From a bacterium (GTDB taxonomy: Bacteria; UBA9089; JASEIO01), in contig JASEIO010000036.1 in NCBI GenBank assembly GCA_030017475.1, positions 1 to 15,056 on the forward strand: DNA of 15,056 nucleotides, given 5' to 3'. The first letter of the stretch is position 1. Every line of letters begins with the position of its first letter. The notes beneath the pieces were generated by a model. It was not told the DNA's origin and did no database searches. It saw only the letters and a list, made by a program, of their open reading frames with translations. Position numbers and translations under genes: made by a program. This document shows positions 2,056-15,056 of this stretch, piece by piece.

Positions 2056-3708
2056 ATGAAAATCTTAGGGAGGGGAACCAAAGTCAAAAGGATATTATTG
2101 ATAAGATCAGCGCCAATAGGTCAAACAAGAACCACTATTGAATTACTTAAGAGTAACTTCCCTGAAGCCAAGATTACTCTTTTTGTACAACCTGAGGTCT
2201 CCAAAATATTTACTAAGGACGTCTCAGAAATAATCCTTTATGAAGATAAGCCGTTTAAGTTCTATAGATTTAAGGGATTAAATAGGATAAGGCGGGCATG
2301 TTTTGATTTGGTAGTTGTTTTATATAATAATCCTAAGGGAGTAGGTTATCTTCATGTAGAACTCCTTTCGTTTTTCGTAAGAGCTAAATATAGAATTATT
2401 TATGACACTATGCTTAACAACCACCCATTAACCTTGAGATCTTGGCTTCGCAGGATTCTATTCAATAACCAATTGGCTATAAACTGGAGTTATTCTCTTA
2501 TCCCAAAATGGAATACATGCCTTATCTTTTTATTTTTAGGAATGGCTTATTTAAAAGAGGGACTGAAACCCTTTATATCATCTAAAAGTAAGCGAGGGAA
2601 TAAAAAAGGATATCGGGTCTTATATATGATACCTTATTTAGACATTGGAGGGACACAGAGTCAGTTAATCAAAACGCTTCAATATATAGATAAAGAGAGA
2701 TATGAGATTGAGGTAGCCTGTTTAAGGGGGGGGATGTATGTTGAAAGGATAAAAAGGATGGGTGTTAGGGTTACCATCCTTAACGAGAATCCAGATTTTC
2801 CTAATATCTTGAAGATATATAGTTATATTAAAAGAGGTCGCTTTGATATGGTCCATCTTTGGCTTATCCAGGTTCATGTTGTAGGTGCTATTTGCGCAAG
2901 ATTAGCCGGGGTTCCAATTATCATATCTTCTATAAGATGTGAGAACTCAAAAGACGTTAATCTAAGATGTTGGTTTAGATTGGCTGATATATTGAGTGTT
3001 AGATTTAATACAAAGATAATTGCCTGTTGTGAAGCAGTAAAAAGGGATTATATGAAATGGGCAAAGATAAATGGAGGTAAAATCTCTGTAATTCATAATG
3101 CTATTGATTTGGATGATTTTAATATCTATGTAGACATCCCTTCAAAGAGGAAGGAATTTAGACTAAAGGAAAATCCACTAATTGGCTTAATTGCACGCCT
3201 TTCGTTAGAAAAGGATCACCTTACCTTTCTTGAGGCAGCATCCATGGTTATTAAATCTATCCCGGAAAGTAGATTTTTAGTAGTTGGCGAAGGGGAATTA
3301 ATGGAAGAATTGAAATCCACAGCTCAAAGGATGAATCTTTTCCAAAATGTAATCTTTACTGGTGTTCGTGCGGATATCCGGGAGATTATTTCTATCTTAA
3401 CTACAGTTGTTCTTCCTTCTGTGAGTGAAGGTCTGCCAAATGTTATCTTAGAGGCTTACGCTTGTAAAAAGCCAGTTGTAGCTACACGAGTTGGTGGTAT
3501 TCCTGAATTGGTTATAGATAACCACACTGGAATCTTGGTAGAGCCAAGAAATCCCGCCGATTTGTCTTCAGCGATTATTAAGATTTTAAAAAACAAAGAC
3601 TTGGCTCGAATGTTTGGTACGGCAGGATATAATATAGTCAAAGAATCCTTCACATTTCGTAAAAACATTGGCATGCTTGAGAAGCTCTATAAAGAGGTTT
3701 TGGTATGA
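2056..3708 (+). CDS. GT4 glycosyltransferase with extra N-terminal GT9-like half domain
   Basis: A 550-residue protein, longer than a usual 360-400 residue GT4 enzyme. Residues about 12-117 (ILLIRS, NFPEAKITLF, CFDLVVVLY, GVGYLHVELL) resemble only the first Rossmann half of GT9 heptosyltransferases. A hydrophobic stretch follows near 153-170 and could anchor the protein to the membrane. The GT4 domain runs from about 187 to 548. GGTQSQLIKTL is the N-terminal glycine-rich loop, IACCEAVKRD and VIHNAIDLDDF are typical GT4 segments, and EGLPNVILE supplies the EX7E pair (E458, E466) that binds the donor nucleotide sugar. The likely role is transfer of a sugar from an activated donor to a growing surface glycan at the inner face of the membrane; donor and acceptor are unknown. 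It is the first gene of the operon and overlaps the next gene by ATGA. Confidence 0.87.
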   Translation: MKILGRGTKVKRILLIRSAPIGQTRTTIELLKSNFPEAKITLFVQPEVSKIFTKDVSEIILYEDKPFKFYRFKGLNRIRRACFDLVVVLYNNPKGVGYLHVELLSFFVRAKYRIIYDTMLNNHPLTLRSWLRRILFNNQLAINWSYSLIPKWNTCLIFLFLGMAYLKEGLKPFISSKSKRGNKKGYRVLYMIPYLDIGGTQSQLIKTLQYIDKERYEIEVACLRGGMYVERIKRMGVRVTILNENPDFPNILKIYSYIKRGRFDMVHLWLIQVHVVGAICARLAGVPIIISSIRCENSKDVNLRCWFRLADILSVRFNTKIIACCEAVKRDYMKWAKINGGKISVIHNAIDLDDFNIYVDIPSKRKEFRLKENPLIGLIARLSLEKDHLTFLEAASMVIKSIPESRFLVVGEGELMEELKSTAQRMNLFQNVIFTGVRADIREIISILTTVVLPSVSEGLPNVILEAYACKKPVVATRVGGIPELVIDNHTGILVEPRNPADLSSAIIKILKNKDLARMFGTAGYNIVKESFTFRKNIGMLEKLYKEVLV

Positions 3709-5579
3709 AGACAGTAGGGGTCTGTTATGCTGGATATATGGCTCGGCATATAGATAGTGGTAAAGAGAAAAGTTGGTTTGCACCCAAAACAATTTGGGAT
3801 GACTTAGAAGGGGAACCTGTCCTAATTAGGACAAAGGATCAGGTTGAAAAGGCCTGTTCAATCAATGATATCCTTTTCTTCATCCAGGATAGAGCGGAGA
3901 ATAAACCTGCTATTGATTTAGCTAAAGAGTGGGGATTAGGGTTAATTTTGGTAGATGATATAGAATGTTTTGAAGCCTATCTACGATTTTTTCTTGAAAA
4001 TTCTGTAGATATAATGGTTCGATTTTCACCAGTTATTCCCTTACTTGACCCTCGTATTATTGATCAAATGGTAGAGTACCTGATTAAAGAGAAGGTAGAT
4101 TTGGTAATCCCTAATGGTTTTACACCTGGTACTACTCCTAATTTTGCCATAACCAATGAAGGATGGGGAAAATTAGTAAGGTTTGAAAGGTTGAATTATA
4201 AAAAGGGGGAGTTGTGGCAATCTCTGTTTCTGCAACCACATATCTTCAAATCCGCAGTTAAAATAAGGTATTTAATTAGGGAGGATCCTAAAAATATAAA
4301 TTTGGAGATAGACAATAGGGTAAAGCTATATCTCGTGAGAAAGGCTTATAAAAAGAATAGATCTTTAGAAGCTAAGGATGTATTAAAGTGTTTTGAAGAA
4401 GACCCTTCGTTTTGGTTAAATGATAAATTCCAGATAGAGTTAGAACTAACAAACGATTGCAATTTAGGTTGCCTTTATTGTCCAAGGAGTAAAATGACAA
4501 GGCAGATTGGGTATATGAGTCTTTCGTTGTATAAAAAGATCGTTTCAGAATGTTCACGCCTTGGCTTTTCAATCTGTCTATCAGGATTTGGTGAACCATT
4601 ACTACATCCTGAATTTTCAAAAATGATTGAGTATGCAAAGGATAGAGGACTTAAGATTTGTTTATATACAAATGGAGTTAACTTAAATGGGGAGAAGGCA
4701 AAGGTCGTATTAGGATATATAGATGAACTATTTATTTCATTAGATGCAGAAGGAGAAGAGGTATATCATAAGATAAAAGGTAGTCCGGATTTTACCTTGG
4801 TGGTTTCAAATATCCATAAATTCTTATCCTTAAAGAAAGAGAAAATAGGAAAGGCAGAAGATTTTACGGATTGGGTCAAGCCAGTTATAATCTTACAGCT
4901 AATTAAGATGAAGGAAAATGAAAAGGAGATAGATACCTTTTGGAAGAGATGGGATCAGTCAACTCGTGTAAAAAGGATGGTTAGAGATGAATTGAACAAA
5001 GACTTCCGTGAATTTATGCCCACTGTAAATATGGAGATATTTAAGATGAAAGAGCGGGATTTTGAGATAGAGGAGATAGAATTTGTGCCAAGATACGAGA
5101 AATTTGAAGACAAGATAAAGAGGTTAGTGGCGCTTCAATTGAAAAGAAATGAGGTTTATGATAAAGAAGATAGGATAGAGATTGATTATGAAGAAAATCA
5201 CTTTTGGATAGATTACTATAGAAGATATCTAAACAGATTCTACAAATCTTCTGACTTACCTATCGAATGGGTAGTTATTCAAAGATTTAATGATTTTGCA
5301 GGAGAAATAAGGGATAGGAAACCCGTTGATTATACACCCAAAAAAAGATGCTATTGCAGGAATCTAAAAGGTGGTATCTCGGTTTTTTGGGATGGTAGAG
5401 TAGTAAGATGTAGAGTGGACTTTGACGGACGGGACATTTTGGGAGATTTAAATCATCATACCATGGATGAAATCCTATCAAATGAAAGACTCAACGAGAT
5501 TAGAAGAAAACAAAGGAGTGGACAATTTGATGAAATCTCCATATGCTCAAACTGTAAGGAATGGTACTATACGGCTTGA
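3705..5579 (+). CDS. SpsF-like nucleotidyltransferase domain fused to radical SAM/SPASM enzyme
   Basis: A 624-residue fusion. Residues about 1-230 resemble SpsF/CMP-sugar synthetase-type cytidylyltransferases: AIDLAKEWGLGLILVDD, then VDIMVRFSPVIPLLDPRIID, then a segment like the SpsF C-terminus (INLEIDNRVKLYLVRKAY). The usual N-terminal nucleotide loop (RxGSxRLPGK) is not intact; the region reads YMARHIDSGKEKSW. The GDCPLxD metal motif has become SPVIPLLD, so this half may be inactive. From about 240 a radical SAM domain follows, with C252, C256 and C259 (CNLGCLYC) for the SAM-binding [4Fe-4S] cluster and GFGEP (294-298) for SAM. A SPASM-like region with C549, C551, C569, C614 and C617 would hold auxiliary clusters. 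The architecture recalls the spiro-SPASM proteins of spirochaetes, from memory only. The substrate is unknown. The gene starts in an ATGA overlap. Confidence 0.83.
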   Translation: MKTVGVCYAGYMARHIDSGKEKSWFAPKTIWDDLEGEPVLIRTKDQVEKACSINDILFFIQDRAENKPAIDLAKEWGLGLILVDDIECFEAYLRFFLENSVDIMVRFSPVIPLLDPRIIDQMVEYLIKEKVDLVIPNGFTPGTTPNFAITNEGWGKLVRFERLNYKKGELWQSLFLQPHIFKSAVKIRYLIREDPKNINLEIDNRVKLYLVRKAYKKNRSLEAKDVLKCFEEDPSFWLNDKFQIELELTNDCNLGCLYCPRSKMTRQIGYMSLSLYKKIVSECSRLGFSICLSGFGEPLLHPEFSKMIEYAKDRGLKICLYTNGVNLNGEKAKVVLGYIDELFISLDAEGEEVYHKIKGSPDFTLVVSNIHKFLSLKKEKIGKAEDFTDWVKPVIILQLIKMKENEKEIDTFWKRWDQSTRVKRMVRDELNKDFREFMPTVNMEIFKMKERDFEIEEIEFVPRYEKFEDKIKRLVALQLKRNEVYDKEDRIEIDYEENHFWIDYYRRYLNRFYKSSDLPIEWVVIQRFNDFAGEIRDRKPVDYTPKKRCYCRNLKGGISVFWDGRVVRCRVDFDGRDILGDLNHHTMDEILSNERLNEIRRKQRSGQFDEISICSNCKEWYYTA

Positions 5580-7011
5580 AGGTAATTATAAGAGAATTCT
5601 TATCCTCCGCTCTTCTGGAGATTTGTTTAAGCGAGCCATTCGATTTATAAAGGAGAGATTTTCAGATGCTTCGCTTTATGCCTTAATACCAGAAGAGGTA
5701 AAAGATCAAGTTTTAGATTTTGAATTTGAAGAGGTAATTATCTATAATAAGGCTAAAAGATTTAATGTTATAAAAGCTGGGTATAGATTTATAAGATCAT
5801 TAAGAAAGAGGAGATTTGATTTAATCCTCATTTTATATGGAGGTGAGGAGTTAAATTACTTAAATGTTATGTTATTTGCCTGGTTAATCGGTAAGAGAAA
5901 GGTTGCCTATACCTTTGAAAATCGAGTTTTTGTATTAACCCATGGATACTTGATTAAAAGGATAATTAAGAGACTTATCTCGAGAAAAAGTAGAATATTG
6001 TCTATGAATAAAAGAATAAACAGATTGGAATTTCAGTCAAAGCGACATCGCCTTTTCTCTATGCCAAAGGTGGCATTTTTTGAAATAACAAATAGATGTA
6101 ATATCCGGTGTGTGATGTGTGGCAGGGAACTTGGAAATTTCCAATCTGGAGATATGTCTCCTTTAATCTTACGAAAATGCAAACCCCTTTTTCCATTTTT
6201 AGAGATTGCAATACCAACTGGCTGGGGAGAACCATTATTAGCTAAAGATATGTTATTTGAGATTTTAGACTTAGCCAAGGAATATCCTCGCTTAAAGACA
6301 AATATTACTACTAATGGGACTTTACTAAATGATGATATAACAGAAAGATTAGTACAAAGTAGACTAACGAGTATAACCATCTCCTTTGATGGAGCTACCA
6401 AGGAAACCTTTGAAGAGATAAGAGCTGGTGCAGATTATGATAGAATAATCGAAAATATAAAAAGAATAAACAAGATAAAAGAGTTACGAAAACTATCTAA
6501 TCCAACCCTAAACCTTGAATTTGTAGCTATGAGAAAAAATATTGAGGAGCTCCCTTCACTTTTGGAGTTGGCTCGGATGTTGGATATATCCTCTATAATT
6601 GTGGTCTATTTAGTAGTACATACAGAAAGACTTAAACACCAATCTCTATACTATTATCAGGAACTTTCTAATAGAATCTTTGAAGAGAGCAAAAGGAAGG
6701 CTCAAGAATTAGGAATAAATCTTAATCTTCCAGATTTCTTTGGGTCTAAAGACAGGATTAAGGAAAAAGGTCAGTGTAGCGCCCCCTGGACTACTATCTA
6801 TATCCGTTGGAATGGAGAGGTATTACCTTGCTGCTTTATGCCCCGGGTTATGGGAGATTTAAAGACACAAAATATTCAAGAGATATGGAATGGAGAAAAA
6901 TATAGATCCCTAAGGAAGGAAATAGGTTCTAAAGATTTACCAGAAAGATGCAGAAACTGTTATGGAAGTGAAATGGATGTAAATCGAGAGAGGAGCCATA
7001 TCCAGGTATGA
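5530..7011 (+). CDS. Radical SAM/SPASM protein with N-terminal GT9-like half domain
   Basis: A 493-residue protein. Residues about 22-130 (RILILRSSGDLF, RRFDLILILY, NYLNVMLFAWL) match the N-terminal module of the operon's first gene. From about 180 there is a radical SAM domain: FFEITNRCNIRCVMC has C190, C194 and C197, and GWGEP (231-235) is the SAM-binding motif. The C-terminal SPASM region carries C416, C434, C435, C474 and C477, with the typical WNGEVLPCC, MGDLKTQNIQEIW and CRNC signatures. The family modifies peptides, sugars or cofactors by radical chemistry; the substrate here is unknown. I chose the ATG at 5530 because AAAGGAG (5512-5518) precedes it. The in-frame ATG at 5467 lies deep inside the upstream gene and has no visible binding site. 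The resulting overlap with the upstream gene is 50 nt. Confidence 0.85.
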   Translation: MKSPYAQTVRNGTIRLEGNYKRILILRSSGDLFKRAIRFIKERFSDASLYALIPEEVKDQVLDFEFEEVIIYNKAKRFNVIKAGYRFIRSLRKRRFDLILILYGGEELNYLNVMLFAWLIGKRKVAYTFENRVFVLTHGYLIKRIIKRLISRKSRILSMNKRINRLEFQSKRHRLFSMPKVAFFEITNRCNIRCVMCGRELGNFQSGDMSPLILRKCKPLFPFLEIAIPTGWGEPLLAKDMLFEILDLAKEYPRLKTNITTNGTLLNDDITERLVQSRLTSITISFDGATKETFEEIRAGADYDRIIENIKRINKIKELRKLSNPTLNLEFVAMRKNIEELPSLLELARMLDISSIIVVYLVVHTERLKHQSLYYYQELSNRIFEESKRKAQELGINLNLPDFFGSKDRIKEKGQCSAPWTTIYIRWNGEVLPCCFMPRVMGDLKTQNIQEIWNGEKYRSLRKEIGSKDLPERCRNCYGSEMDVNRERSHIQV

Positions 7012-8066
7012 TAAGTAAAATAGCTTATCTTTTGATATCTGTATCCCTATTAGGCCTTATTCTAATAGGCAATATCTTTGCAAAATTTCTACCTTCCAAA
7101 AGGGATGAAGGCATAAAAGGAGACTTTGAGAAAGGTCTTACGTCAATCATTATGTTAAATTATAACGGCGAAGAGATTATGCATATAATTATGAAAGGTA
7201 TTGAAGCCATCCTATCTCAAAGTTATCCCAAACTGGAGTTGATTGTAGTAGATGATCATTCAGAAGACCAGAGTTTAAGGCTTCTAAGAGAGCTGAGCGA
7301 AAAATTGGGTGATGGAAGGATGAGGGTAGTATCTTCAGAAAAAAGAAGAGGTGTTGCTGGTGCAAGAAATATTGGCCTACGAGAGGCGAAGGGTGAGTTT
7401 ATTGCATTTATCGATAGTGATGCTATCCCAGAAAGGGATTGGATCGAGAATTTAGTTAATAGATTGAAATCGAATATAGATCATGGGGCTTGCGTCCCAA
7501 AATTGGTTTTTCTTACGTGCCCAAACCTAATAAATGGATTTGGTGCTGCAATAAATAGATTAGGGTATGGCGTCCCAATTGGAGCAAACAAAGAAGAGAA
7601 TGGTTTCAGATATCCAAAAGAGGTAATGTACGGGGCTGGATGTGGGATACTTGTAAAGCGTGAGGTTTTTCGTAAAATAGGTCTATTTGATGAAGGGTTT
7701 TTGTTTTATGGACAGGATGACTCTGATTTAGGAGTGAGGATGAGGGATGCAGGTTACAAAATCTTTGTAGTACCAGAATCAAGAGTATTTCATAAGTCCT
7801 TCCATTCTAATACCCAATTTGATGCCAACTTTTGGAACAATAGGAACACAATTAGGTTTGTCTTAAAACATTATTCTATGCAAGATTTAATAAGATGGTA
7901 TAGATGGAAATGGAGAGAATTCCTTTTAATCGAACATAAAACACCCCAGATTAAATGCTGGCTTTCTAATTTTTGGGAGATACCTTCTATCTTAAGATTT
8001 AGAAGAGAGAATACCGGTTTAGGCAGTTTCTTAGATAGATATGAGCGATTTATGAGAGAGATATGA
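7008..8066 (+). CDS. Membrane-anchored GT2 glycosyltransferase
   Basis: A 352-residue family 2 (GT-A fold) glycosyltransferase. Residues about 5-24 form an N-terminal membrane anchor, followed by a charged linker. The catalytic domain starts near 45 (TSIIMLNYNGEE), with LIVVDDHSEDQS for nucleotide binding, GVAGARNIGLREAKGEFIAF and then D136-S-D138 as the metal-binding DXD. FYGQDDSDLGVRMRDAGYKI is the acceptor-side acidic motif region seen in rhamnosyltransferase-like GT2 enzymes. It probably adds a sugar to a lipid-linked intermediate at the cytoplasmic face of the membrane; specificity cannot be read from sequence. Both ends overlap neighbours by ATGA, implying translational coupling. Confidence 0.88.
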   Translation: MISKIAYLLISVSLLGLILIGNIFAKFLPSKRDEGIKGDFEKGLTSIIMLNYNGEEIMHIIMKGIEAILSQSYPKLELIVVDDHSEDQSLRLLRELSEKLGDGRMRVVSSEKRRGVAGARNIGLREAKGEFIAFIDSDAIPERDWIENLVNRLKSNIDHGACVPKLVFLTCPNLINGFGAAINRLGYGVPIGANKEENGFRYPKEVMYGAGCGILVKREVFRKIGLFDEGFLFYGQDDSDLGVRMRDAGYKIFVVPESRVFHKSFHSNTQFDANFWNNRNTIRFVLKHYSMQDLIRWYRWKWREFLLIEHKTPQIKCWLSNFWEIPSILRFRRENTGLGSFLDRYERFMREI

Positions 8067-10081
8067 AGATATGTTATATCTCACCAGGAAGAGGCACGCA
8101 CATTCGTCGTCTTACAGAATGGTTTGCAAAGAGGGGTCATGATATATATCTTATTACAGATAGTGATATCTCTATTAAAGATGTAAGGATTTACAATTTA
8201 ACCCAATCTAATTCAGATATTGAGGGAATAAGGTATGCAATAGATGAGATCAAACCAGATATCCTTCATTTACAGACACTCCTTTACCCATCTTATCTAT
8301 CTCTTTTTCTCTCTTTTAAACCCACAGTAGTTACTCCATGGAATGGCGATGTTCTATGGGATGCTGAAACTTCACCTGCCCACAAAATGATGGTTAGATT
8401 TATTCTTAAGAATGCAGATTTAATTACTTGTAATTCAAGGGAAATGGTAAATACTTGTATTTTGCTTGGTGCCGATCCAAATAGGACATACCTGATACAG
8501 GATGGAGCTGATTTAAGATATTTTCATCCCAGGATAGAAGTAGAAGATTTAAGACGTGATCTATCTCTAAATGGTTATAAAATAGTACTAAGTACTCGTT
8601 CATTGGGAGAAAATTATAATATAGATATAATTATTAAATCCATACCATTGGTTTTAAAAAAGGTCCCACATGTTAAATTCATCTTTATCTGGGAGCAGGA
8701 AGATACAGGTTATAAATGCAGATTAAATAAATTGATTCAGGAATTACATGTAGAGGATAATATATTATTTGTTGGTAGTATAAAGGATTACAGAACAGTT
8801 GCTAAATATTATGTCTTAAGTGACGTCTTTATTTCTATCTCCTCTTACGATTCCAAACCAACATCCCTCTTAGAGGCAATGGCTTGTGGTACTCCTCCTA
8901 TAGTTGGAGACATCCCTGCAGTCCGAGAATGGATAGAGGATAAAAGGAATGGATACATTGTCCATCCGAGAGATCCTTACAAGTTGTCTCAAGCAACAAT
9001 AAGGCTTCTGAATAGTTCGTCGATTGGTAAAAAATTTACTAAGGAAAATTTGGACTTGGCAAAGAAGGCAGATTTCTCAAAAAATATGGAAGGAATGGAA
9101 AGGTTATACCTATCCTTATCTAATCCCTCTCCCAAGCCACATAAAGTTCCAAAATCTACCTTCTATTATCTCTATGGACTATACTGGGATCTGGAGGATG
9201 ATTTAAAAAAGGCTGCATATTATTATAGAAAGGCTATACAGACAAAACCCAATCTTAGTGAAGCCCATTATCTCTTAGGGGTTAGTTATAGAAAACAAGG
9301 AAGGATTAGACAGGCTATTTATGAAGGAGAAAAGGCCGCAGGATTAGACGAAGGGATATCAGAATATTTTTCCTTTTTGGGTACTGTGTATGATAAGATG
9401 GGTAGGGTAGGGGAGTCCACAAAATTTTTCAAAAGGGCCTTATCAATCGATCCTAAGAATATAGAGGCGACCTACTATCTAAAGGCTTACAAGATAATGG
9501 GTTTAGTAAATTATATCAACAATGGATATGTAAATTTTGGTCCAAATGAGGTATATTTAGTGCCAAAGATTTTGGTAGAGAAAGGCTTTTTTAATGAAGC
9601 ATTTAAGGAAATTGAAGATATAATCAACTCCTTCTTTTACGAACCAGAGGATTTTTATTTTGAATTTGGTATCCTACTCTTAAATGAAAACTTGATTAAG
9701 GGAGCCGCAGAAACATTCAAAAGATTGATCTCTATAAACCAGAACCACATCAAGGCACATTTTAATTTAGGTGTTTGTCTTGAGAATCTTGGCCTATTTA
9801 AAGATGCCATAAAGTCATTTCAAAAGGTGATTGAATTTGAACCGGATAACGCTCTTGCCCATTATAACTTAGGTTCTTGTTTTGAGAAAGAAGGAAGGTT
9901 AAAAGAGGCAGAAAGGGAGTTTTCACAAGTCATTTCATTAACCAAGGGATTGCTTAGTGGTGCCTATTACCATTTAGGAATAATAAAACACGAAAAGGAA
10001 CTATTTAAAAAATGCCTAAAGATCAATCCTACCCATAAAATGGCTAAAAGGTTTTTAGAAGTTAATGAAGGAAATACATAA
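8063..10081 (+). CDS. GT4 glycosyltransferase fused to C-terminal TPR repeats
   Basis: A 672-residue fusion. Residues 1-350 are a GT4 enzyme: THIRRLTEWFAKRGHDIYLI at the N-terminus, VVTPWNGDVLW, ITCNSREMVNTC, and a donor-site segment DSKPTSLLEAMACG (from D263). In the EX7E pair the first acidic residue is Asp (D263) and the second is Glu (E271), a conservative departure. From about 365 to 660 there are tetratricopeptide repeats, for example AHYLLGVSYRKQGRIRQAI, IKAHFNLGVCLENLGLFKDAI and ALAHYNLGSCFEKEGRLKEAE, with a less regular stretch at about 480-560. TPRs commonly bind partner proteins, so this enzyme may scaffold the others; that is inference. It starts in an ATGA overlap and overlaps the next gene by 17 nt. 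Confidence 0.86.
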   Translation: MKICYISPGRGTHIRRLTEWFAKRGHDIYLITDSDISIKDVRIYNLTQSNSDIEGIRYAIDEIKPDILHLQTLLYPSYLSLFLSFKPTVVTPWNGDVLWDAETSPAHKMMVRFILKNADLITCNSREMVNTCILLGADPNRTYLIQDGADLRYFHPRIEVEDLRRDLSLNGYKIVLSTRSLGENYNIDIIIKSIPLVLKKVPHVKFIFIWEQEDTGYKCRLNKLIQELHVEDNILFVGSIKDYRTVAKYYVLSDVFISISSYDSKPTSLLEAMACGTPPIVGDIPAVREWIEDKRNGYIVHPRDPYKLSQATIRLLNSSSIGKKFTKENLDLAKKADFSKNMEGMERLYLSLSNPSPKPHKVPKSTFYYLYGLYWDLEDDLKKAAYYYRKAIQTKPNLSEAHYLLGVSYRKQGRIRQAIYEGEKAAGLDEGISEYFSFLGTVYDKMGRVGESTKFFKRALSIDPKNIEATYYLKAYKIMGLVNYINNGYVNFGPNEVYLVPKILVEKGFFNEAFKEIEDIINSFFYEPEDFYFEFGILLLNENLIKGAAETFKRLISINQNHIKAHFNLGVCLENLGLFKDAIKSFQKVIEFEPDNALAHYNLGSCFEKEGRLKEAEREFSQVISLTKGLLSGAYYHLGIIKHEKELFKKCLKINPTHKMAKRFLEVNEGNT

Positions 10082-10565
10082 TATTTTACTTTTAAGGACT
10101 GCTTCTAAAGATGTGTGTGAAAAGGCGCTAGAATTTCTTAAAGTCATGTTTCCTGAGGCTAAAATCACGATTATTTCCCCAAACAAGATTGAATTAGAAG
10201 GAATATATAAAGTAATAGTTTATGATTGGGGAGATAAGATAAGTATTTTTAGGGTAAAAAGACTTAATCAAATATTAAGAGATAAAGAATTTGATCTGAC
10301 CCTATGTTTATGGGAGAATAGAAAAGGTTTAGGGTATTTGAATGTTGACCTATTGCTTTTTTATATAGGCAAAGATAGATATGCCTTTACAAAAGAAGGG
10401 GATTTTATAGAACTTACCAAAAGAAGATTTTTAAAGAAGTTATTCCATGAACTTTCCCTTTTGCCTTTAAAATTTCTCCTAATTATAACCTTAACCTTAA
10501 TCCTTGGTATAACTTATGTCTACTGTCTTTTAGAAAGAATCCTTCTTGACATTAGGAAAATATAA
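10065..10565 (+). CDS. Free-standing GT9-like half domain with C-terminal membrane helix
   Basis: A 166-residue protein with no catalytic domain that I can recognise. Residues about 5-110 (HNILLLRTASKD, MFPEAKITII, EFDLTLCLW, KGLGYLNVDLLLFY) align with the N-terminal modules of the genes at 2056 and 5530. A strongly hydrophobic segment at about 134-157 (LLIITLTLILGITYVYCLL) should span the membrane and ends in a basic tail. The first gene of the operon has a similar hydrophobic segment after its module, so the two share more than the domain alone. The protein lacks the second half that GT9 enzymes need for donor binding, so it is unlikely to be a glycosyltransferase by itself. It overlaps the previous gene by 17 nt and has no strong ribosome binding site, which suggests reinitiation. 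It could also be a truncated relative of the first gene. Confidence 0.7.
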   Translation: MKEIHNILLLRTASKDVCEKALEFLKVMFPEAKITIISPNKIELEGIYKVIVYDWGDKISIFRVKRLNQILRDKEFDLTLCLWENRKGLGYLNVDLLLFYIGKDRYAFTKEGDFIELTKRRFLKKLFHELSLLPLKFLLIITLTLILGITYVYCLLERILLDIRKI

Positions 10566-10670
10566 AAAACTACGGATTTGCCCAGATATCTGTAAATTAT
10601 CCGTGATTATATCATTTGTAACAACAGGTGATAATCTGGGGTTAAATTTTCTTGAATAATTGAGGGATAG
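10566..10670 (+). promoter_or_regulatory. Structured gap with interleaved inverted repeats
   Basis: This 105-nt spacer is the only real gap in the operon. ACGGAT (10572-10577) pairs with ATCCGT (10599-10604), and CCCAGAT (10581-10587) pairs with ATCTGGG (10634-10640). The arms interleave, which is H-type pseudoknot topology. GATTAT (10605-10610) can alternatively pair with ATAATC (10631-10636), competing with the second stem. TTAAATTTT follows the last arm. This could be an attenuator, a weak terminator or chance. A good ribosome binding site, GAGGG (10662-10666), precedes the next gene. Confidence 0.3.
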
Positions 10671-11609
10671 ATGATATCTGTAATTATACCAAATTGGAAC
10701 GGAATGAATTTGCTTAAGGACTGTTTGCCTTCTTTAAAGAACCAGACTTATCAGGATTTTGAAATAATCTTGGTGGATAATGGATCTACGGATTCCTCTG
10801 TTGAATGGACTCGCATGAATTATCCAGAGGTAAGGATTATTGAATTAAAAGAAAATATGGGATTTAGTAAGGCTGTAAATTGTGGAATAAAGGAAGCCAA
10901 AGGAGATTTAATTGCCTTATTGAATAATGATACAATAGCGGATTCAAATTGGCTTTTTGAGTTAAATAAGGCATTAAGCACGCACCAAGTAGATTTTTGT
11001 GCAAGCAAGGTTTTGTTTTTAGGAAAGGATAATCTAATTAACTCATGTGGTGATTCGTATGGAGTAGATGGGAGAGCGAGAAATATTGGATTTAGGGAGA
11101 AGGATAATGGTCAATATAGAGAAAAAAGGCTAGTATTTGGGGCTTCAGCTTGTGCCTCTATTTATAAAAGGAGTCTGTTTAATAAAATAGGACTGTTTGA
11201 TCCCGATTTCTTCTTAGTTTATGAAGATGTTGATTTTAGTTTTAGGGCACAGCTTGCGGGTTTTAAGTGTTTATATGTACCAGAGGCTCGAGTCTATCAT
11301 TTATATTCTGTAACTCGACGCTTATTAGACCATATGGATGTGTATTATATTGCAAAGAACAATTTGAATGTATTGGTTAAGAATATGCCGAGCCAATTAT
11401 TTATGAAATACCTCTTTTTTATATTAAAGGGACAAATACGAGAGGCGACGTATTTTTCAAGCAATGGCTATCTTAGATATTTTCTATGGGGTAAGATTGG
11501 GGCCTTGTTCCAGCTTTTTAAAATGCTTTACAAAAGAGGAAGGATTCAAGCAAAAAGAGAGGTTTCCATAGAATATATAGATAGCATATTGGAGAAAAAC
11601 ATCCTCTAA
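10671..11609 (+). CDS. GT2 glycosyltransferase (rhamnosyltransferase-like)
   Basis: A 312-residue GT-A enzyme of family 2. MISVIIPNWNGMNLLKDCL, VDNGSTDSS and ENMGFSKAVNCGIKEAKGD are the classic rhamnosyltransferase-like blocks, and N85-N86-D87 (LLNNDT) stands where the DXD metal motif sits, as is normal in this subgroup. GASACASIYKRSLF and DPDFFLVYEDVDFSFRAQLAGF form the acceptor-side region. The C-terminal 70 residues are hydrophobic and basic, suggesting peripheral membrane attachment. It probably transfers a deoxysugar or hexose to a surface glycan precursor; the donor is not determined. GAGGG lies 4 nt before the ATG. The stop overlaps the next start as TAATG. Confidence 0.88.
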   Translation: MISVIIPNWNGMNLLKDCLPSLKNQTYQDFEIILVDNGSTDSSVEWTRMNYPEVRIIELKENMGFSKAVNCGIKEAKGDLIALLNNDTIADSNWLFELNKALSTHQVDFCASKVLFLGKDNLINSCGDSYGVDGRARNIGFREKDNGQYREKRLVFGASACASIYKRSLFNKIGLFDPDFFLVYEDVDFSFRAQLAGFKCLYVPEARVYHLYSVTRRLLDHMDVYYIAKNNLNVLVKNMPSQLFMKYLFFILKGQIREATYFSSNGYLRYFLWGKIGALFQLFKMLYKRGRIQAKREVSIEYIDSILEKNIL

Positions 11610-12238
11610 TGGAGAAAATCTTTAATCTATTAAGAGAAAGGTATAAGGTATCGGAATATAAGAATGAACCATTTCAAGTCTTAATTGGGACAATATTATC
11701 TCAGAGGACAAAAGATGAAAATACAGCCATTGCTTGGAAAAGTCTGTTTTCACATTATAAAACACCGAAGGATATAGCCAAGGCTCCGGAGAAGAAGTTA
11801 CGAGAGCTGATAAAGGTAGTTGGATTTTATAAGGTTAAGGCAGAAAGGATAAAGGAGGTTGCAAGGATATTGGTAGAAAGATATAAAGGGGAGGTACCGA
11901 GAGATATTTCGGAACTTTTGAAATTGCCAGGGGTCGGAAGAAAGACAGCTAATTGTGTATTGGCATATGGATTTGGGATTCCTGCTTTGCCTGTTGATAC
12001 CCATGTTCATCGCATATCAAACCGAATTGGCTTGGTTTCAACAAAAGACCCAGTAAAAACAGAAATCGAATTAAAAAAGGTTGTGCCAAAAAGATATTGG
12101 ATCTATTTGAATGAGCTATTGGTTAAATTTGGGAAAGATATCTGTAAACCAATCAATCCAAAATGTAATCTTTGTTTAATAAGAGAATTGTGCTTGACAG
12201 GAAGGATAAATAAATTACCTCAAGCTTTCATCCCCTAG
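11609..12238 (+). CDS. nth: Endonuclease III (DNA N-glycosylase/AP lyase)
   Basis: A 209-residue base-excision-repair enzyme that removes oxidised pyrimidines and cleaves the abasic site. The helix-hairpin-helix LPGVGRKTAN contains the catalytic lysine (K112, equivalent to E. coli K120). The catalytic aspartate is D130 in VDTHVHRISNR (E. coli D138). The C-terminal [4Fe-4S] loop C-x6-C-x2-C-x5-C is complete (C179, C186, C189, C195). The length matches the family. It overlaps the upstream glycosyltransferase by one base (TAATG) and has only a distant GGAG, so it is probably translated by coupling. Its presence at the end of a glycan operon looks like housekeeping read-through rather than a shared function. 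Confidence 0.95.
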   Translation: MEKIFNLLRERYKVSEYKNEPFQVLIGTILSQRTKDENTAIAWKSLFSHYKTPKDIAKAPEKKLRELIKVVGFYKVKAERIKEVARILVERYKGEVPRDISELLKLPGVGRKTANCVLAYGFGIPALPVDTHVHRISNRIGLVSTKDPVKTEIELKKVVPKRYWIYLNELLVKFGKDICKPINPKCNLCLIRELCLTGRINKLPQAFIP

Positions 12239-12430
12239 TCTCTAATGGAGTTTGTCATCCCAATGCAATTTGTTTAATATGGATTGCAAAGTACAATATT
12301 TGCTGGCTTTTTACATTGTAAGAGGGATTAGGAACAGAGTAAATCTCTGAAGGTTTTATTTAGGGGGTAAAGCCAGTATCCTTTTTAAAGTAAGTTTACA
12401 AGATGTTTAACATCAAGTTTACCACAATGA

Positions 12431-12995: not shown

Positions 12996-15056
12996 ATGAC
13001 TACTCGAGCGCAGATTATTTTGATTATTTTACTTTTTTTCCTTATAACAGAAATAGCAACCCCTATAAATGCTTTTGCTAATGAAGTCCTTATTTTAGAT
13101 GATTTCAATGATGGAAACATGGTTAATAATTTTGGTGGCTCAGGAGGGGGATTCGATAGCTTTCCTGCAACCGGCACCTGCATTGCTAAAGTCTATAACG
13201 CTAACCCGGAAAATATTAGAGGGAAAAATGGTTTTTCGTTACAGTTGATATATGATGTCTCTAATTCAGAAAGTTTTTCGGGTTATTTCAGTAAATTGGA
13301 AGGACATAACCTGAGTAAGTTTAAATATCTATCATTCTGGGTTAAAGGAGGCACAGGTAGCGAACTTTTTAAGATAGAATTTAAAAATAATGGTACAGAT
13401 ACTAATAGAAACAGAGCCGCAGTTTATGTTACCGATTATCTGGATGGTGGTGTAACTACCCAATGGCAGAAGGTGGTTATCCCTTTAGATGCCTTTGCCA
13501 ACATCGATGATTGGACAAATATGAAAGAATTCGTGGTTGTCTTTGAAAATTATCAAAGTAACATAAATGGTAGCCCATTGAAGAGCACCATCTACATTGA
13601 TGATATTTTGTTTGGTACTTATTTCATTGGTTGTGTTCGGATAGATCATTATGGTGACAAATTAGGAATAAATGCACTGGGTGGGAATATGGGAAATATG
13701 GATAGCGAAGGTGGGTCAAAGACCTATTCTATTGCTACCTCCACTTATCACAATGCTCCTAATAGCTTATTGTCAGAGTATGATGTAACAAATGGTTGGG
13801 CAGGTGTGTTTAAAATATTTGGCGGTGGAGAAGATGGCTGGACGGCGATACCACATAATTTTAGTACTTACGATAAACTCACCTTTTGGGTAAAGGCAAA
13901 ATCAGGTAATGAGAATCCAAAAAAGATAAAGATAGAACTTGGAGATCAATACTGTAACTATAACAGATTCAATCGGATTGATAACATCACTACTGATTGG
14001 CAGAAATTTTCTTTATCGCTTAATGATTTTCCTCAACTAGATAAGGAAAGTATTAAACACATGAACTTTGTATATGAAGATTGGCAAGCAGATCACAAGA
14101 TTGGTGCTGTTTATATTGATGATGTCCAGTTTGAAAAAGAAGGATATGTTCCGGATACTACTTTCCCTATTGCACCAACTAATTTCAAAGCTAATGGAGA
14201 ACCTATAGCGGATGGGCATACCTTTGGGATGAAGAATCTCCTGACTGTCAACGCTGATTCTGGGGCAACAGATGAATCATTAGAGGGTGTTCGGTTTGAA
14301 TACTCTGATGATGGAGGAAACACCTGGCATACCATTGGGACTGACTATGAGCTAATTGACGATAGTTACGGGATAACATGGTATACCTCAGGGCTAATAT
14401 TAGATAAAAAATACTCCATAAGGGCAGTTGCTCAGGATTTTGCTGGAAATGAAACCCCAGGATACTCTTACCATAACTGTAAAATAGAATTTAAAGAGGG
14501 ATTAAATTATATCTTTGATAATTTCGATGACCAAAATATATCCTTTAATGACTTCTGTGGTAACCGAGGTGAACTCAATGGTGAGTATATAGAGGCAACC
14601 TTCTCTACTACTATTTTTTATGGCACTACAGGAGCCTCTCTTAAAATAACCTATAACCTACAAGAACCCGGAAGTTATACCGGCATCTGGGAATCTCTCT
14701 TTGGGCATTCGGACTACCCTGAGTATTGCCTGAATTTTAATGATATATATGGTTCTTTAAACGAGGGTAAAAAGGATTTCGATTTGATAACCTTTTGGGT
14801 TAGAGGAAGTGGTTCGACTAATAATCAGCATATCATTAGATTCGAACTAAAGGATAACCGTCCAAAGGATGAGAGGTATAATTACACCGCCTATAAATAT
14901 ATCTCCATAGATGATAAAAATACAGAATGGCAACCTATAGTTTTAGATGCAGATGTCACCAATTCTAAGTTTTGGTCATATAACCAATATCCCCCTGACC
15001 CTACCAGGATGAAAGAGATGGTCTTTGTCATAGAAAGTGATTATAATGAGACATCA
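12996..15056 (+). CDS. Exported modular protein with carbohydrate-binding-like domains (3' end cut by window)
   Basis: The frame is open for 687 codons to the window edge with no stop, so the C-terminus is missing. A Sec signal peptide is clear: a basic start (TTR), a hydrophobic core (IILIILLFFLI) and a likely cut after AFA at residue 28. Then come three copies of a beta-sandwich unit at about 32-205, 210-377 and 504 onward. Each has a start like ILDDFNDGN or IFDNFDDQN, a middle LSFWVKG, LTFWVKA or ITFWVRG, and a W-(Q)-KVVIPLDAF-like strand. The first two copies close with YIDDILF and YIDDVQF. They resemble CBM11/CIA30-type or related carbohydrate-binding modules. Between the second and third lies an Ig/fibronectin-like domain (about 380-495, VRFEYSDDGGNTW, IRAVAQDFAGNET). 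AAGAGGAG (12979-12986) supports the start. It probably binds or processes polysaccharide outside the cell; a catalytic domain could follow downstream. Confidence 0.8.
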   Translation, partial: MTTRAQIILIILLFFLITEIATPINAFANEVLILDDFNDGNMVNNFGGSGGGFDSFPATGTCIAKVYNANPENIRGKNGFSLQLIYDVSNSESFSGYFSKLEGHNLSKFKYLSFWVKGGTGSELFKIEFKNNGTDTNRNRAAVYVTDYLDGGVTTQWQKVVIPLDAFANIDDWTNMKEFVVVFENYQSNINGSPLKSTIYIDDILFGTYFIGCVRIDHYGDKLGINALGGNMGNMDSEGGSKTYSIATSTYHNAPNSLLSEYDVTNGWAGVFKIFGGGEDGWTAIPHNFSTYDKLTFWVKAKSGNENPKKIKIELGDQYCNYNRFNRIDNITTDWQKFSLSLNDFPQLDKESIKHMNFVYEDWQADHKIGAVYIDDVQFEKEGYVPDTTFPIAPTNFKANGEPIADGHTFGMKNLLTVNADSGATDESLEGVRFEYSDDGGNTWHTIGTDYELIDDSYGITWYTSGLILDKKYSIRAVAQDFAGNETPGYSYHNCKIEFKEGLNYIFDNFDDQNISFNDFCGNRGELNGEYIEATFSTTIFYGTTGASLKITYNLQEPGSYTGIWESLFGHSDYPEYCLNFNDIYGSLNEGKKDFDLITFWVRGSGSTNNQHIIRFELKDNRPKDERYNYTAYKYISIDDKNTEWQPIVLDADVTNSKFWSYNQYPPDPTRMKEMVFVIESDYNETS

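Follow-up and report, generated by a model that had tools for sequence, protein, structure and literature searches.

The closest described relatives of the domain reported here are the GT9 heptosyltransferases (HepI/WaaC, HepII 1psw and the Veillonella protein 3tov), in which the N-terminal domain is the acceptor-binding half (PMC5713226) and replacement of the catalytic aspartate of WaaC (D13A) lowers the activity 4688-fold (PMC5713226). A further GT9 homologue by profile (E 1.7e-7) is PnsB1, a stromal subunit of the plant chloroplast NDH complex (9grx, 7wff, 7f9o), which is a structural subunit contacting membrane subunits and Lhca5 (PMC12170339). Described enzymes related to the partners of the domain are the HpnJ-type cobalamin radical SAM proteins (TIGR03471), the spiro-SPASM proteins (TIGR04321) and the NTase-like radical SAM/SPASM fusions. 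Here we report a half-GT9 domain, hereafter the module, that occurs on three different proteins encoded within a 15,056-bp stretch of bacterial DNA (the window; contig JASEIO010000036.1 of assembly GCA_030017475.1) and on further proteins in at least three phyla. No earlier description of the module was found in literature searches.

The genes between positions 2056 and 10565 overlap or nearly abut, consistent with a single operon (Table 1). The GT4 partner in the gene at 2056 is complete and comprises two Pfam domains (PF13439, aa 197-353; PF00534, aa 364-526), with E-x7-E found in its sequence. The partner in the gene at 5530, for which an alternative open start exists at 5467, is a radical SAM/SPASM enzyme (PF04055 and PF13186) in which CNIRCVMC fits CxxxCxxC. 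The first-pass annotation of the window, made from the sequence alone, had thus correctly named the three partners as a GT4, a radical SAM/SPASM protein and a bare membrane helix, and both enzymes retain their own signature residues.

Table 1. Coordinates of the module-bearing genes, their parts and neighbouring genes in the window.
Feature	Position	Strand	Evidence
Gene 1: half-GT9 module + hydrophobic linker + GT4, 550 aa	2056..3708	+	ORF, Pfam, profile
Gene 1 module, ~aa 10-119	2083..2412	+	profile, AF2 model
Gene 1 moderately hydrophobic helix between module and GT4, ~aa 147-166	2494..2553	+	hydropathy 1.45, AF2 helix
Radical SAM/SPASM protein, spiro-SPASM-like, without module	3705..5579	+	ORF, Pfam/NCBIfam
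Gene 2: half-GT9 module + radical SAM/SPASM enzyme, 493 aa	5530..7011	+	ORF, Pfam
Gene 2 module, ~aa 20-130	5587..5919	+	alignment, profile
GT2 glycosyltransferase, same operon, without module	7008..8066	+	Pfam
GT4 glycosyltransferase with TPR repeats, same operon, without module	8063..10081	+	Pfam
Gene 3: stand-alone half-GT9 module + C-terminal transmembrane helix, 166 aa	10065..10565	+	ORF, profile, AF2
Gene 3 module, ~aa 4-116	10074..10412	+	alignment, profile, AF2 model
Gene 3 transmembrane part, aa 138-156 of continuous helix aa 119-165	10476..10532	+	hydropathy 2.43, AF2
GT2 glycosyltransferase, probable cluster end	10671..11609	+	Pfam

Several other features of the window were recorded. 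The GT4 protein encoded at 8063-10081 is joined to a long run of TPR repeats, and related clusters (L038, L039) contain GT2 proteins with TPR-like tails. Divergent from the operon, the minus strand encodes a DUF362 protein with a C-terminal ferredoxin-like 4Fe-4S domain (596-1837). An endonuclease III gene (11609-12238) lies upstream of a large open-ended protein (12996-15056) with a signal-like N-terminus and repeated carbohydrate-binding-like beta domains.

The three segments were found at the positions claimed for them in the first-pass annotation, and the order of blocks that it described is present in all of them: ILLIRS, FPEA, IILY, FDLVVV and KGVGYLHVELL in gene 2056; ILILRS, FSDA, VIIY, FDLILI and NYLNVML in gene 5530; and ILLLRT, FPEA, VIVY, FDLTLC and KGLGYLNVDLL in gene 10065. 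The near-identity of the first and third copies along KGxGYLxVxLL is evident from these strings. The hydrophobic segment said to follow the domain in the same two proteins is pronounced in gene 10065, with a mean of 2.43 over 19 residues, whereas gene 2056 has a weaker one (1.45); no such stretch follows the domain in gene 5530 (0.92). Smith-Waterman scores were 103 for the pair 2056-5530, 171 for 2056-10065 and 138 for 5530-10065 (z = 13, 26 and 17, respectively, relative to 2000 same-composition shuffles per pair with means of 32-35 and maxima of 59-67). When the 166-aa protein of gene 10065 was compared with its own 1.64-Mb genome by BLAST, the sole matches were the segments of genes 2056 and 5530 (E 2e-15 and 1e-10), and a three-row profile detected one further protein in that genome, a PMT_2-like transferase on contig C36. 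The segments also find each other by profile, and their homology is confirmed at the level of sequence. Pfam and NCBIfam contain no model that covers the segments of the window proteins.

The similarity of the module to GT9 enzymes was assessed with profiles and predicted structures. A profile of 14 modules matched six full-length GT9 proteins from the phylum of the window at a probability of 99.2% (hhalign; E 2.9e-19, 125 columns), the match being confined to the N-terminal half, and the single window segments matched the same region with E values of 5e-5, 4e-10 and 1e-15. With GT4 N-domains the same profile reached a probability of only 0.7%, and with B12-binding N-domains one of 0.4%, so the match to GT9 is not a generic Rossmann signal; chance Rossmann similarity was ruled out by these controls together with the shuffles. 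In a profile search of the PDB, GT9 proteins ranked top, with HepII (1psw) first (E 1.3e-4), and the NCBIfam heptosyltransferase III model weakly matched modules of relatives (best E 7e-4 to 9e-4). AlphaFold2 structures were predicted for two copies. The model of gene 2056 (aa 1-175; pLDDT 88) was most similar to 3tov (Z 11.2, rmsd 2.6, 115 aligned), and 1psw was among its best matches (Z 9.7, rmsd 2.4, 100 aligned). The model of the gene 10065 protein (pLDDT 93.5), in which the C-terminal helix (aa 119-165) is single and continuous, had the same two GT9 structures as top matches (3tov: Z 9.3, rmsd 2.7, 107 aligned; 1psw: Z 8.7, rmsd 2.4, 98 aligned). The module shares with GT9 heptosyltransferases the order of strands and helices, the fold of the N-terminal half and the I-L-x-I-R, FPxA and FDL blocks. 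The resemblance to the N-terminal half of GT9 noted in the first-pass annotation was thereby upheld, and both profiles and models support a derivation of the module specifically from the acceptor-side half of these enzymes.

Searches of all loci yielded 174 non-redundant matches, comprising 101 modules without the C-terminal half of GT9 (a few of them being a single protein seen incompletely in loci that overlap), 72 GT9 proteins having it, and one GT9 cut at a contig end. A candidate stand-alone module in L100/L143 was rejected as a full GT9 interrupted by the contig end. A profile of the GT9 C-terminal half matched the full GT9 proteins but none of the module-only proteins, in agreement with the earlier claim that the donor-binding half is absent. 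The Gly-Asp after strand 1, which is well conserved in 40 GT9 rows (G 95%, D 92%), is gapped in 101 of 101 modules; the missing aspartate corresponds to WaaC D13. The modules also lack the GT9 arginine after strand 4 and the later His-Glu. They retain the R-S after strand 1 and have a motif of their own after strand 4, YN-x3-GxGYxN (G 81%, G 92%, Y 93%), which is the same in N-terminal, C-terminal and stand-alone copies. The conserved non-aliphatic positions (R and S after strand 1, N and GxGY after strand 4, and G after strand 5) would, judging from the strand positions in the gene 2056 model, all map to the C-terminal edge of the sheet, which in a GT-B enzyme looks onto the cleft. No donor half follows the module; instead, a hydrophobic or membrane helix comes after it, or an unrelated enzyme is attached. 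With the GT9 active site lost from its sequence, the module is apparently inactive and non-catalytic. We consider it very improbable that the half domain completes an active GT-B enzyme in trans or together with a GT4 partner: GT-B enzymes do consist of two Rossmann halves, and one module directly precedes a GT4 domain, but the GT4 partners already possess both halves and E-x7-E, the catalytic aspartate is deleted, the window revealed no separate donor half, and most of the collected modules are on radical-SAM enzymes or stand alone rather than being attached to transferases.

Within the phylum of the window, the module occurs at the N-terminus of GT4 proteins (gene 2056, L039, L040 and L041), of a radical SAM/SPASM protein (gene 5530) and of a methyltransferase (L044), at the C-terminus of cobalamin-type radical SAM proteins (L042, L043) and of a PMT_2-like protein in the window's own genome (L047), and as a stand-alone form with a membrane helix (gene 10065, L038 and twice in L041). 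The radical SAM part of gene 5530 (aa 160-493) is 33-36% identical to proteins in L039 (36%) and L043. These have a different N-terminal domain, in whose place gene 5530 carries the half-GT9 module, which indicates domain exchange at this position. The C-terminal fusions of this phylum, Nitrospinota and Omnitrophota resemble HpnJ at superfamily level in their catalytic part; they score 130-157 bits with TIGR03471, far under the cut-off of 577.6, and differ by the additional C-terminal module. Two loci showed further arrangements. The PMT_2-like membrane protein on contig C36 (L047:9827-12136) has two half-GT9 copies at its C-terminus, and its gene lies beside one for a carbamoyltransferase-like protein, within a second cluster of glycan type. 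A polysaccharide-type cluster in another genus of the phylum (G008; L041:3363-7225) contains two stand-alone copies and one GT4 fusion.

Outside this phylum, the module was found in Nitrospinota and Omnitrophota. The three Nitrospinota module types matched the modules of the window's phylum with profile probabilities of 99.4-99.9%, and the architecture of module, membrane helix and GT4 is also present there (L137). Omnitrophota have stand-alone and radical-SAM forms (L054; L141 and L142 of G168); true modules were seen there in only two genomes (G020, G168), and most matches among the loci read were full GT9 proteins. The search beyond the three phyla consisted of two pattern-based scans of genome contigs, both of low sensitivity, which yielded no match in the first case and four loci in the second, two of them outside the window's phylum, and a scan of viral contigs and plasmids with limited sensitivity gave no module match. 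Because of this sensitivity, the true spread of the module may be wider.

Of 77 Nitrospinota genomes searched, 49 were tallied as module carriers. In this phylum, the module occurs in a cassette that consists of a radical SAM protein with a C-terminal module, a stand-alone module with a membrane helix, and a second radical SAM protein with a C-terminal module (e.g. L128:7913-12277, with the three genes at 7913-9697, 9877-10500 and 10508-12277), and both radical SAM proteins retain CxxxCxxC. By coordinates, the full trio lies side by side in 28 genomes. The stand-alone gene adjoins at least one module-bearing gene of about 600 aa in 40 of the 49 carriers and has no such neighbour in six; some of the incomplete cassettes lie near contig ends. 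A hydrophobic helix follows the module in 43 of 46 stand-alone copies vs one of 45 C-terminal copies. The genes next to the cassette encode FtsY and a VCBS-repeat-like lipoprotein and are not glycan genes; they thus give no evident sign of a shared glycan substrate in this phylum. In its composition, an anchored module beside enzymes that carry the same module, the cassette parallels the operon of the window, and the expectation that the module would recur on multiple partners within conserved operons held. No report on the two radical-SAM enzymes was found in the literature searched. In one genome (G049; L144:6862-8627), the cassette has seemingly collapsed: the stand-alone gene is missing, and a single radical-SAM frame, which resembles the first enzyme in its front part and the second in its rear part, is followed by a separate module fragment.

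In a tree of the modules, which is based on few columns and contains many weakly supported forks and long branches, C-terminal copies on radical-SAM enzymes from three phyla formed one clade (97/94), and the copies of genes 5530 and 10065 were placed with stand-alone copies from Nitrospinota and Omnitrophota (96/79); GT4-fused copies were unresolved near GT9. The copies thus group by role across phyla, and this pattern suggests that the sets are of old origin or were passed on as whole sets, and not that they arose by recent duplication. A recent duplication within the operon is unsupported, as the copies cluster, in this weakly resolved tree, with those of the same role in other genomes and phyla. 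These data also bear on the proposal that the module is a GT9 fragment that was fused several times by chance and kept only for folding or solubility. The loss of the catalytic pair and of the donor half would fit such a relic, as would the low identity between copies (23-39% to the first row of the module alignment), but the new motif hardly varies across the 101 copies, 28 genomes share the gene order of the trio, and copies from different phyla group according to role; we regard this explanation as unlikely.

The best explanation, to which we give slightly less than an even chance, is that the module is a non-catalytic, GT9-derived recruiting domain. It would act as an adaptor whose anchored copy (gene 10065 in the window) lies on the cytoplasmic side of the membrane and gathers the module-bearing enzymes, which would be the GT4 and the radical SAM/SPASM protein in the window and the two cobalamin radical-SAM proteins in Nitrospinota. 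Contact would be made through the face that lines the cleft between the halves in GT-B enzymes, and the gathered enzymes would process one lipid-linked substrate one after another. In the window, where the operon is rich in glycosyltransferases, this substrate is probably an intermediate of a surface glycan. The attachment of C-terminal copies to radical-SAM enzymes of the cytosol makes a cytosolic location of the module most likely in all cases; in the GT4 fusions, the hydrophobic linker would accordingly need to lead back to the cytoplasmic side. The suggestion of a common docking or acceptor-binding part, made when the window was first annotated, is strengthened by the Nitrospinota cassette, in which all three proteins carry the module.

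Docking and acceptor binding would use the same face, and we infer that docking is the favoured mode of contact. The alternative, that the modules independently bind one common substrate, lipid-linked or a glycolipid, and hand it to the enzymes fused to them, with the stand-alone copy as a membrane presenter or carrier, is possible with a smaller but substantial probability. The acceptor-binding role of the GT9 N-terminal domain (PMC5713226) speaks for it, as does the location of the conserved non-aliphatic positions at the edge of the sheet where GT-B acceptors bind, with one motif in all three kinds of copies. This placement of the motif counts against docking, because plain ligand binding explains it equally well. 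The six Nitrospinota genomes with a solitary stand-alone copy also argue against docking, and the GT4 fusions have a hydrophobic linker of their own and would need no separate anchor. On the other hand, the GT9 residues of that face (GD, R and HE) are lost, the chemistries of the partners differ widely, and an enzyme-less membrane copy beside soluble module-bearing enzymes is more simply understood as an anchor.

The reuse of a GT9 fold in an assembly likely has a precedent and parallel in PnsB1. A bacterial GT9 profile matched PnsB1 chains (9grx_1, 7wff_a, 7eu3_6) with E values of 1.7e-7 to 2e-5 over both halves, and the chloroplast NDH literature searched contained no word beginning with "glycosyl". 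PnsB1 differs from the module in that it matches both GT9 halves (profile positions 21-297), is eukaryotic and is part of a respiratory-type complex.

This study adds a module that is present on six kinds of proteins in three phyla and lacks a Pfam or NCBIfam model. In its broadest form, which we put forward tentatively, our proposal is that a glycosyltransferase acceptor half, once detached and stripped of its catalytic function, turned into a recruiting domain that can be plugged into other proteins, is present in at least three phyla and gathers radical-SAM enzymes, glycosyltransferases and methyltransferases on an anchored sibling; this would constitute an unrecognised type of membrane-bound assembly line, with a Nitrospinota version built around two cobalamin radical-SAM enzymes. 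Such a domain would be important because its presence would predict which enzymes work together, and because it would provide a handle on two radical-SAM enzymes that are conserved in most module-carrying Nitrospinota genomes. It would also illustrate a route from a catalytic GT-B half to a non-catalytic recruiter, to which PnsB1 of plants is a likely parallel.
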